From positions 1 through 31,689 of IMG/VR virus record IMGVR_UViG_3300020021_000220: 31,689 nucleotides of DNA, one strand, 5' to 3'. Under the pieces are notes generated by a model. It was not told where the DNA came from. It was given only the letters and a program-made list of their open reading frames with translations, and did not search any database. Position numbers and translations under genes: made by a program. Source of the stretch: a virus. Below are positions 5,907 to 9,511 of this stretch, piece by piece (the first letter of the stretch is position 1; each line of letters begins with the position of its first letter).

Positions 5907-6902
5907 ATGCCTGACGATCCCGACGACCTGAAACCGATTCAATCGGATATGAGCAACGTGCCCACCGTCGAGTCTATCGTCGGCGGCGGCGCCGCACGGG
6001 CGAGGGATTTTAAGGAACACATGGCGAAGCATTCCGCCGCACTGTTTAACTTCTGGATGGCACAAGCTCAGGCCGTGCATGACCTGGTGCGGTTCCATGA
6101 CATCCATGGCGAAGGGAAAGGCCCGAATAGCCTGGAAACCCACGCCAAGAAAATGGGCATGAGCTATCGGACGGCCCGGTTGATCGAAATAATCGCCATC
6201 GAAACGGATTTGATCACCGGAGAGATCAAGAAACTCATTCGCAAGCAGGCGGACAAATTCAAGTACCCGACCCGAGCCAAGATGCTGGAATGGGCGAGAG
6301 GCAGCGCAAAGCTACCGGCCCCCAATGCCCTCGCAATCTTGCGTCGGGAACTGGCCGAGCTTAGAGCCGAAAACAAATCGCTTCGAGCCAAGGGCGACGC
6401 ACCAGACAAGGCGCCAGAGGCGGCAACATCCCAGACCGGTCAATCATCGGCCAACGATTCTAAAGCCGCTGGCGCCGGTCCCAAGGCGATAGCATGGGCT
6501 GATCGAATCACCACACCGGGACGAATGACGGCGGCGTTCAATGTCGCTACCAAAACCCTACCGTCAAACATGACGTGCGCCGATGTCCGGGACCGATTGA
6601 TGCCGGTGTGGGACCGGGTACCGGACGGGATCAGCCGCAAGGCCGTCGTGGCGAAGTTTAAGCGTATGACAAGCGAATTCAGCAAGGCACACGCCAGAGG
6701 CACCTCGCCCAATCCGTTAACAATGGGCCAAGAGCGGCCCGTTTTTCGCACCGAAGGAGAATGGCTCTATGGACCGCCCGTGCATGATGGTTGGCTGATC
6801 CTGCCATACGGCGCTTGGCCAGGCGCCGCTCGCAAGCCGTCATCATCGGAAACCAAAGCGTCCGTGCAACGAGTTAAAGCCAAACTGCTAAAGGATTTTT
6901 GA
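5907..6902 (+). CDS. Hypothetical phage protein with central coiled coil, 331 aa
   Basis: Unrecognised. The N-terminal half is helical, with a segment near residues 75-100 (LETHAKKMGMSYRTARLIEI) that could be a helix-turn-helix. A leucine-rich coiled coil (ILRRELAELRAENKSLRAK) follows near 145-163, then a polar alanine-rich linker and a C-terminal domain with tryptophans (DGWLILPYGAWPGAARK). This layout resembles multimeric DNA-binding regulators but is not diagnostic. The ATG at 5907 has no clear ribosome binding site; the in-frame ATG at 6022 has AAGGA five bases upstream and may be the true start. The linker DNA holds a 20-nt sequence identical to one right after the integrase stop. Confidence 0.6.
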   Translation: MPDDPDDLKPIQSDMSNVPTVESIVGGGAARARDFKEHMAKHSAALFNFWMAQAQAVHDLVRFHDIHGEGKGPNSLETHAKKMGMSYRTARLIEIIAIETDLITGEIKKLIRKQADKFKYPTRAKMLEWARGSAKLPAPNALAILRRELAELRAENKSLRAKGDAPDKAPEAATSQTGQSSANDSKAAGAGPKAIAWADRITTPGRMTAAFNVATKTLPSNMTCADVRDRLMPVWDRVPDGISRKAVVAKFKRMTSEFSKAHARGTSPNPLTMGQERPVFRTEGEWLYGPPVHDGWLILPYGAWPGAARKPSSSETKASVQRVKAKLLKDF

Positions 6903-6938
6903 AAATAAAATCACTTGACAGTTTCGCTCACATAATGG

Positions 6939-6968
6939 TTGCAATCATCCATAGACATTGTGTAGAAT
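6939..6968 (+). promoter_or_regulatory. Candidate sigma-70 promoter for the 7012-7940 operon
   Basis: TTGCAA (6939-6944) and TAGAAT (6963-6968) are spaced 18 bp apart and lie 44 bp before the ATG at 7012, in an AT-rich gap between two rightward genes. A perfect TTGACA at 6915-6920 also occurs here but lacks a matching -10. It would drive three small genes. Confidence 0.55.
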
Positions 6969-7011
6969 ATGATCGTGTGGATTCTCCGCACCGCAGAACA
7001 CGAAGCACAAC

Positions 7012-7359
7012 ATGGATCAGACCCAACAAATCATTAAACGAATTCATACCGACCTGGACGACCTGATTTCAATCATCTCGACGCAAAATTCCGATATCGA
7101 CGCCTTGATGATAGACAATGAACGGTTGCGCAATGCCGTCCCGAAGCCGCCTCGCAGTGTCATCGGCGCCGACACGAAATATGCCGCCATGGCCAAACTT
7201 GAAGTCAGCGAATCGATCTTTCTGCCAGGCGTCACGATCAACCAGGCGTCAAGCGCAGCGTGCTATCTGAAGAAGCGGTACAATCCGCACCTCAGATTTG
7301 GCAACAATGTTCAAACATTAAATGGAATCCACGGCATAAGGTGCATTCGCATCGCTTAA
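7012..7359 (+). CDS. Hypothetical protein, 115 aa, with DUF7303-like C-terminus
   Basis: The N-terminal 45 residues form a heptad-like helix (IIKRIHTDLDDLISIISTQ, then NDERLRNAV), probably a dimerising coiled coil. The C-terminal part (ESIFLPGVTINQ, AACYLKKRYNPH, then GIRCIRIA) resembles the small 'be-functional-and-present' domain of many phage proteins in which a short strand is followed by a helix and an R-x-x-G-I-R-x-x-R-I ending, often annotated DUF7303. That family has no firm function. It is the first gene after the 6939 promoter. The family match is from memory and tentative. Confidence 0.6.
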   Translation: MDQTQQIIKRIHTDLDDLISIISTQNSDIDALMIDNERLRNAVPKPPRSVIGADTKYAAMAKLEVSESIFLPGVTINQASSAACYLKKRYNPHLRFGNNVQTLNGIHGIRCIRIA

Positions 7360-7386
7360 GCAACAATAAGAAACGGAAACGAACAC

Positions 7387-7755
7387 ATGACCATCCACGA
7401 CACCCAATATTTTCTCGATGAGGTTGCCGACCAGGCACCCGACGCATTCAAGAGCCTGATGAACGGCATCGCTGAACATTTCAGCCTCTATGGTTCCCTA
7501 ACCCAGAAACAAAGGAAAGCCGTCCACGTGACCGCATCCAAATTGAATTTGATTCCGCCCGATGACCTGAGTAATTTCGCCGCCGAGGAACCGATCCGGG
7601 AATACCATTCCGATCCATCGGCCAAGGCATTGCTCGATAACCTGGTGAACAAGACCCGACCCGCAGTCAAGGAAACGATCATTCAAAACCCGTTCGCTGA
7701 TCTTCTGCTCGACCTCGCCCAGGTACTCGTCAACCATGCGGAGAAAATTCGATGA
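7387..7755 (+). CDS. Hypothetical protein, 122 aa
   Basis: A mostly helical, acidic protein (MTIHDTQYFLDEVADQAPDA at the front; LLLDLAQVLVNHAEKIR at the end). I do not recognise it. Its stop overlaps the next start in the form ATGA, so the two are translated as a pair. It is in the same operon as the coiled-coil protein upstream. Small acidic helical proteins in the early region of phages often bind host factors, but nothing here identifies a target. Confidence 0.65.
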   Translation: MTIHDTQYFLDEVADQAPDAFKSLMNGIAEHFSLYGSLTQKQRKAVHVTASKLNLIPPDDLSNFAAEEPIREYHSDPSAKALLDNLVNKTRPAVKETIIQNPFADLLLDLAQVLVNHAEKIR

Positions 7756-7940
7756 CATTTGAACTCGATGAAACCGAGGAAGTCACCGAACCCGAATTTG
7801 ATCGCCTCTTGACAGAGATCAAATTCATCACGATCCTCCGCTTCAAATTCACGCCCGAGGAACTTAAAATCCTTGGCGGACTTCTGACCGGCATTGATCC
7901 CGACCTATATGCCGATTTGATGCGGTCAGTCGAATTCTGA
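7752..7940 (+). CDS. Hypothetical acidic protein, 62 aa
   Basis: Overlaps the previous gene by four bases (ATGA). The protein is strongly acidic at the front (FELDETEEVTEPEFDRLL) and amphipathic after that (FTPEELKILGGLLTGIDPDL). Unrecognised. It is last in the 7012-7940 operon and is followed within ten bases by a GC-rich hairpin. Coding status rests on the tight coupling. Confidence 0.6.
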   Translation: MTFELDETEEVTEPEFDRLLTEIKFITILRFKFTPEELKILGGLLTGIDPDLYADLMRSVEF

Positions 7941-7948
7941 AACGAAAA

Positions 7949-7980
7949 GAGCCGGTGCGATTTGGACTCCGCACCGGCTC
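7949..7980. terminator. GC-rich hairpin, terminator-like on the minus strand
   Basis: GAGCCGGTGCG (7949-7959) and CGCACCGGCTC (7970-7980) form an 11-bp perfect stem. Read on the minus strand it is followed by TTTTC, so it should stop leftward transcripts. On the plus strand it has no T-run and could be a transcript-end stabiliser or Rho-assisted stop for the 7012-7940 operon. Confidence 0.6.
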
Positions 7981-8091: not shown

Positions 8092-8203
8092 ATGAACTGG
8101 TGACGCAGCATCCTCGGAATCGGTTTTGTTTTAGCGGCGAAAGCAAATCAAAACCCAATAGCCCGGCTAGGTTGCGTCACCAACCTAACCGGGCTTTTCT
8201 TTA
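8092..8203 (+). ncRNA. Candidate structured small RNA ending in an intrinsic terminator
   Basis: The stretch has no credible ORF but three designed-looking pairings. GGTTTTG (8122-8128) pairs with CAAAACC (8149-8155). AGCCCGG-C-TAGGTTG (8160-8174) pairs with CAACCTA-A-CCGGGCT (8181-8195), followed by TTTCTTT, a textbook intrinsic terminator. In addition, TGGTGACGCA near the 5' end (8098-8107) is perfectly complementary to TGCGTCACCA in the terminator loop (8173-8182), extendable to 12 pairs with one G-U. So the RNA can either form a loop-tail pseudoknot or open the top of its own terminator. A CTAAATA motif lies just upstream. Either a free small RNA or a leader that controls read-through is possible. 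Confidence 0.55.
8160..8202 (+). terminator. Intrinsic terminator
   Basis: A 14-pair stem with one C/A mismatch, a six-base loop (CGTCAC) and a TTTTCTTT tail on the plus strand. A further hairpin, AAGCCCC (8203-8209) with GGGGCTT (8223-8229), follows at once. Confidence 0.8.
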
Positions 8204-8663
8204 AGCCCCACACCATAGCGCAGGGGCTTATAGGTATCACCCCGTACCAAATCTTAAACCGGGAGTCAGACCGGCGGTGGGCAGCAGCGCAAGCGACAGG
8301 ATGGACATCCGATGCAACGGCAAGAAAGCATTGCAGTCGGAGTAACAGCGGCCTGGCATTCAAAATGCGAATCAACTAAAACGCCCAAAACAAGACGATG
8401 GCGCTCGCTCTGAAATTGCGAACCATCGACGATAGGCCAGTCATTCTCGGCCAGCTTATCGGGATACTAAACCGAGTTTCGATCCCCGGAAATTAAACAG
8501 GACCACCATGCAATAACACGGCATGACCCTTGAAGATATGGACCAGATCGAGGATGACGTTCCAATGCCGGTAAATGGACTCCACCGGCTTCCATCATGT
8601 GCCAACACGACGATGTGACAGGAACGAGAGAAAGCGAAACAACCCATACGGTTATACGCATCA
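8204..8663. other. Non-coding, structure-rich stretch
   Basis: About 460 nt without a supported gene. Visible short hairpins include GGTA/TACC near 8231-8248, GCATT/AATGC near 8357-8370, CGATGG/CCATCG near 8395-8430 and CGATA/TATCG near 8430-8462. A 31-codon ORF at 8523-8618 has no ribosome binding site; a two-codon ORF with an AGGA site at 8508-8516 sits just before it. I would not call either a gene. Confidence 0.4.
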
Positions 8664-8714
8664 ATCCTCCCATGGAATGACCATCATGCTTTGATGGTCA
8701 TTCCGTGGGGGGAT
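8664..8714. promoter_or_regulatory. 23-bp near-perfect hairpin covering a start codon
   Basis: Left arm 8664-8686, five-base loop TGCTT, right arm 8692-8714. All 23 positions pair, two as G-U on the plus strand. The core GGAATGACCATCA / TGATGGTCATTCC is perfect. No T-run follows, so it is not an ordinary terminator. The right arm ends in a G-run and the first two bases of the ATG at 8713, so it would hide the translation start of the downstream ORF. An RNase III site or protein operator is also possible. Confidence 0.6.
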
Positions 8715-9175: not shown

Positions 9176-9511
9176 TTATCGCTGCGCCAGGAACTCGCCG
9201 CTCCGACGATCATTGACCCACGGTTGCCAGTTCGCATCCCGCAGGCAGGCCAATAGCTGACGAGCCGATGCGACCTGTAATGTCCGATAGATGGACGCCA
9301 GATGCACCTTGACCGTCGATGGTGACAGATTCATCTGACGAGCTATCGTTTTGGTGTCGTGGCCACGTTCAACCAACCGGAATACCTGGCGTTGCCGGGA
9401 AGTCAAAAGATCGGATGCCTTGACGGAACGGCAGACCGTGGCGAACTGCTCCGGCGATTGGTGCAGCTTCAAAGCATTGTTATCGTTCACGTATTCCAAA
9501 ATAACCCCCAT
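9176..9511 (-). CDS. LuxR/GerE-type helix-turn-helix transcription regulator, 111 aa
   Basis: Residues about 35-90 form a LuxR C-terminal DNA-binding domain: LTSRQRQVFRLVERGHDTK, then IARQMNLSPSTVKVHLASIY with the recognition helix in STVKVHLASIYRTL. Only about 30 residues precede the domain, so there is no autoinducer or receiver domain; it is a minimal, ligand-free LuxR protein. It is transcribed leftward with its own terminator, opposite to a small rightward operon at 9713. Two inverted repeats with the same AGGA half-site (9557-9569 and 9596-9610) lie in the shared control region, the first between its own -35 and -10, which suggests autorepression. No other regulator is visible in the rightward part of the window, so it is a good candidate switch gene. 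Domain certain; role inferred. Confidence 0.85.
   Translation of the reverse strand: MGVILEYVNDNNALKLHQSPEQFATVCRSVKASDLLTSRQRQVFRLVERGHDTKTIARQMNLSPSTVKVHLASIYRTLQVASARQLLACLRDANWQPWVNDRRSGEFLAQR

Follow-up and report, generated by a model that had tools for sequence, protein, structure and literature searches.

The apical loop of a strong intrinsic terminator in this phage DNA is perfectly complementary to a segment of the same strand further upstream, and the pairing of the two is probably a real RNA structure rather than a coincidence. Our preferred reading, to which we assign a probability of roughly one half, is a terminator at the end of an operon whose loop makes a kissing or pseudoknot contact with the upstream segment. 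A plus-strand phage transcript, most probably the one carrying the ORF run at 5907–7940, would end here, and the terminator loop (CGUCAC with flanking UG and CA) would pair with UGGUGACGCA ∼65 nt upstream, forming a kissing or pseudoknot contact that spans a middle hairpin. With the lower stem beside the U-tract able to stay formed, such a contact would hold the 3′ end in a compact form without preventing termination, and would plausibly protect or tune that end.

The stretch analyzed (the window; 31,689 nt) covers the integrase-side end of a prophage whose portal is P22-like. At the left prophage junction (518–1957), the phage integrase (1957–3192) adjoins a host diacylglycerol-kinase gene (518–1753). 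The predicted host is a member of the Acetobacteraceae, since this host gene is closest to genes of that family, which also contains Acetobacter farinalis. Early genes follow the integrase, and then come the terminase, the P22-like portal and the major head protein; the terminase lies 6.4 kb from the element. The plus-strand ORF run at 5907–7940 reads toward the terminator, its last ORF (7752–7940) encoding 62 aa without a recognized family, and the element starts 157 nt after this co-directional ORF. From there to a LuxR-type gene on the minus strand (9176–9511), ∼1 kb beyond the locus, we found no gene of a recognizable family, as expected from the first-pass annotation, which had called the region gene-poor. 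With a co-directional gene before the element and no credible gene directly after it in the window, a 3′-end terminator with a stabilizing contact is favored over an attenuator.

Several other features of this neighborhood were recorded. Right after the ORF ending at 7940 lies a hairpin with a perfect 11-bp stem (7949–7980), which has a U-rich tail on the minus strand only. A further hairpin (8199–8233) is found directly 3′ of the terminator, and the gene-poor region also contains a 23-nt inverted repeat (8664–8714; 91% complementary, 5-nt loop) without a U-tract. For a neighboring protein of 331 aa, the AlphaFold model had a mean pLDDT of 44, too low for use.

The element itself begins with the upstream arm (8097–8108, plus strand), which contains the 10-mer TGGTGACGCA at 8098–8107 and can form a mini-hairpin of 3 bp with a 6-nt loop, CTG[GTGACG]CAG. 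The terminator hairpin (8160–8195, plus strand) consists of a 7-bp GC-rich lower stem, a C-A mismatch, a 7-bp upper stem and the 6-nt loop CGTCAC; with its U-rich tail TTTCTTTA (8196–8203, plus strand), the whole intrinsic terminator covers 8160–8203. Its loop and the top of its stem, TGCGTCACCA (8173–8182, plus strand), form the perfect 10-nt complement of 8098–8107 that had been described beforehand, with the same sequence and coordinates. The second hairpin reported between the complementary segments was found at 8122–8155 (plus strand), and the proposed extension to 12 pairs is seen in a forced fold, with G8108 pairing to U8172 and C8109 to G8171. The sole imperfect pair of the terminator is C-A on the plus strand and U-G on the minus strand, which mildly favors the latter.

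The same annotation had placed a candidate promoter just upstream and suggested a separate small RNA of ∼110 nt. Neither idea is supported: the region has three promoter-like sites against 2.1 expected in shuffled sequence, which is chance level. This segment could be no more than the 3′ end of the plus-strand operon ending at 7940.

How readily would such complementarity arise by chance? A complement of at least 10 nt to the loop region occurred in 6 of 20,000 dinucleotide shuffles of the upstream 110 nt, which is ∼3 in 10,000 for each terminator. We also compared 140 distinct terminator-like hairpins from ∼0.5 Mb of retrieved DNA; 10 nt was reached only by the window element and by phage relatives that had themselves been found by searching this 10-mer; the highest value among the remaining hairpins was 9. 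Given the ∼25 terminator-like hairpins within the window, a chance origin of the complementarity is unlikely. It is true that hundreds of sequence relations might have drawn attention in a first reading. Moreover, no homologues of the window locus were found in 397 Acetobacteraceae genomes, in phage or plasmid collections, or in IMG/VR by way of the neighboring proteins (13 matches were scraps of roughly 25–50 nt), so there is no covariation from the window's own lineage. Nor did distant terminase relatives in host-order genomes have a comparable terminator loop. Yet an identical 10-mer arrangement occurs in another phage group and covaries there, and we consider a fortuitous match, between the loop of an ordinary operon terminator and sequence upstream of it, quite unlikely.

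That other group came from a search of IMG/VR for TGGTGACGCA and TGCGTCACCA separated by 40–70 nt, which returned 23 contigs; two scrambled 10-mers (one permuted, one reversed) had no match in the same collection. Sixteen of the 23 come from freshwater phages; in these, the loop of a terminator-like hairpin contains the complement, and the second segment is found upstream. The order is that of the window: arm, spacer with a hairpin, then a terminator-like hairpin carrying the complement in its loop. Since these 16 contigs were chosen by the motif, they prove nothing alone. By searching with the terminase protein that adjoins the element, and not with the motif, we also obtained 80 relatives. 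In the freshwater relatives, the two 6-nt loops take seven sequence-pair types and are complementary in 33 of the 33 loci tabulated. The first loop reads GTGACG, GTGAAG, GTGCAA, TTGCAC, TGACAG, ATGAAG or AT(T)GCGC, and each time the second hairpin holds the matching complement; the window loop pair is one of these types. In a 17-row alignment, all six loop base pairs show changes on both sides, and the loops are 100% paired, a figure that is not independent because the rows were picked by complementarity. The covariance model leaves the loops unpaired, and two of the seven types were absent from its building set; the new types that it found, AT(T)GCGC/GCGCAT (one bulged base, 11 loci) and ATGAAG/CTTCAT, are both complementary. 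Eight loci of the former subtype (L108, L112, L146, L095, L140, L097, L113 and L098) have a 7-nt first loop, AUUGCGC, facing GCGCAU with one base bulged. Many of the 80 terminase loci gave no match, some being cut by a contig end and others seemingly lacking the element. Covariation of the two segments in the freshwater phages supports real pairing.

The stems of the freshwater hairpins contain 25 G-U cells and no A-C cells, indicating that the RNA reads from arm to terminator, the orientation seen in the window. The first hairpin has a 5-bp stem, GAATG[N6]CATTC. In many of these phages the element lies ∼45–50 nt after a co-directional terminase gene, and in L143 it lies 31 nt after another gene; in phages of the L002–L007 type, the genes beside it run the opposite way. 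The U-tract after the hairpin is good in the L002–L007 type and in L143 and weak in many terminase-linked members, suggesting stronger conservation of the loop contact than of termination. On the strand opposite the element, L013 (13640–13900) and L002 (150–480) carry another conserved, structured region that contains GGTTCNCCAAAGCC and GTGGTACGCATTCAC motifs, ends at the element's hairpin from the other side and has no Rfam match. Its wobble pairs suggest a minus-strand RNA that would converge on the element.

Does the window element belong with these? A covariance model built without the window (R1) scored highest, over the whole window, at 8093–8207 on the plus strand, with 15.8 bits and an E-value of 0.13; this is not significant, and the score comes partly from the very 10-mer by which the freshwater family was found. 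Plus-strand freshwater members score 49–105 bits. The first hairpin of the window element reads UG[GUGACG]CA, but its stem has 3 bp (CUG/CAG) versus 5 bp in the family. The element also has a second, GC-rich hairpin whose 6-nt loop is complementary to the first loop, and it lies 3′ of a co-directional gene. Layout, loop size and the UG/CA closing pairs are shared, while the first hairpin is weaker and nearly all other sequence differs. From these comparisons, we hold with moderate confidence that the window element would be the same kind of structure as the freshwater element, whether or not the two share a common descent.

A close rival, though in our judgment a somewhat doubtful one, is a two-state terminator resembling an attenuator. 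Here, the arm would pair with the 5′ side of the terminator as it emerges, making a terminator-excluding helix of 12 bp plus 4 bp, and the terminator would win only once its 3′ side is complete. The 4 bp come from a segment at 8114–8117 (plus strand), which in this alternative long-range fold pairs with 8163–8166, in the 5′ strand of the lower terminator stem. Because the long-range helix also takes these bases, its nested form is incompatible with the terminator; when the loop bases alone pair, the lower stem may stay, giving a kissing or pseudoknot contact. For the window RNA, the terminator fold was calculated at –37.7 kcal/mol and the forced long-range fold at –36.9 kcal/mol, energies that leave out pseudoknots and do not decide between the two-state and the kissing or pseudoknot forms. 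Their near equality means that a switch is possible. The long-range fold has the lowest energy for a growing transcript whose end lies at 8182–8194, and in some freshwater members it is the minimum-energy fold outright. There, the helix extends over CTGA:TCGG, with 99.6% of cells paired, but this extension beyond the loops hardly varies and is thus weakly tested. The balance between the two states would be set by some factor, such as a protein, an RNA, or a ribosome on the frame ATG AAC TGG TGA (8092–8103). This tiny frame lacks an obvious ribosome site and is not followed by a trp-type gene. Nor is there a plus-strand gene with coding support close downstream, the LuxR gene ∼1 kb on being on the minus strand. 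The first-pass annotation had offered a pseudoknotted RNA and an anti-termination switch as alternatives, and both survive: the loop pairing is strengthened by the freshwater covariation, and the attenuator is weakened by the lack of a plus-strand gene with coding support just downstream.

Attenuation of the trp type was rejected, there being no downstream biosynthetic gene and the Rfam Trp-leader match reaching only 20.7 bits (E-value 0.18) against a cut-off of 41. Like trp-leader attenuators (RF00513), the element has an upstream segment that can pair with the 5′ side of the terminator and exclude it; unlike them, it has no regulated gene directly downstream, a single Trp codon and an Rfam score far below the cut-off.

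The 10-mer could also act as DNA. The two copies of TGGTGACGCA would then be inverted protein-binding sites, like the GGTGACGCA iterons that adjoin SF3-type helicase genes in other phages of Alphaproteobacteria. The same 10-mer does occur inverted, spanning 70–87 bp, in L022, L024, L026 (Acetobacter farinalis) and L036, with a helicase gene directly beside the repeats in three of the four. But those loci carry at least two copies per arm within long inverted repeats, whereas the window has one per arm and no further good copies. In the freshwater phages, moreover, the sequence varies while complementarity is kept, with wobbles on one strand, unlike a fixed protein site. We regard this explanation as unlikely. 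An iteron replication origin was rejected for the window, which has one copy per arm and whose record has no match to a DUF5906 helicase.

The four loci are of interest in their own right. Tandem iteron-like GGTNACGCA repeats make up long inverted repeats on either side of a GC-rich center in L022 (4320–4470), L024 (2160–2405), L026 (1470–1600) and L036 (1215–1330), and in the last three they lie directly downstream of SF3-type helicase genes (D5_N/DUF5906/VapE). On this arrangement, the GGTNACGCA loci are probable replication origins of phages in Alphaproteobacteria. They resemble origins of the P4 alpha type. A genome-wide scan for the pattern gave 12 matches, two of which are iteron elements; most of the others resemble coding sequence or long hairpins.

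Searches of Rfam 15 returned nothing in the window at the curated cut-off, nothing significant when the E-value was relaxed, and no match to the freshwater element, near which there were only tRNA-type matches. A literature search for the motif string yielded nothing relevant. Two known RNAs provide partial parallels for the preferred reading, a terminator held in a kissing or pseudoknot contact. In RydC, an enterobacterial small RNA with a U-rich 3′ end, the pseudoknot has a strong, simple terminator hairpin as its competing fold, and the RNA becomes unstable when the pseudoknot is broken; a pseudoknot fold can thus decide the stability of an RNA ending in a terminator (PMC4337610). The window element would likewise set a pseudoknot fold against a terminator hairpin at a U-rich 3′ end. 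RydC, however, is a proven Hfq-bound, trans-acting RNA, whereas the window element is a putative transcript in which the spacer is longer and includes a middle hairpin, and it has no known sequence relation to RydC. The prohead RNA (pRNA) of phi29, a component of the packaging motor, makes loop-loop contacts of 4 bp between molecules (PMC7357161). It is, like the element, a phage RNA with two mutually complementary hairpin loops, and the freshwater members adjoin a terminase gene. Unlike in pRNA, the element's loops pair by 6 bp (10 with closing pairs), a terminator is present and nothing links the element to packaging.

Possibly, and we put this forward as a tentative proposal, the freshwater-lake phages and the Acetobacteraceae prophage share a previously unrecorded kind of phage RNA, with two hairpin loops, one of which caps a terminator, that stay complementary despite sequence drift. 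The contact could be intramolecular, giving a loop-locked or two-state terminator, or could join RNAs head to tail, the arrangement of phi29 pRNA. Intrinsic terminators are usually treated as self-contained hairpins. A terminator loop kept complementary to an upstream segment, and covarying with it across many phages, would be a recurrent RNA fold without an Rfam 15 match. The seven kinds of loop pair allow comparison in a simple in vitro assay, and the effect of such a fold on termination or on 3′-end stability would be testable.
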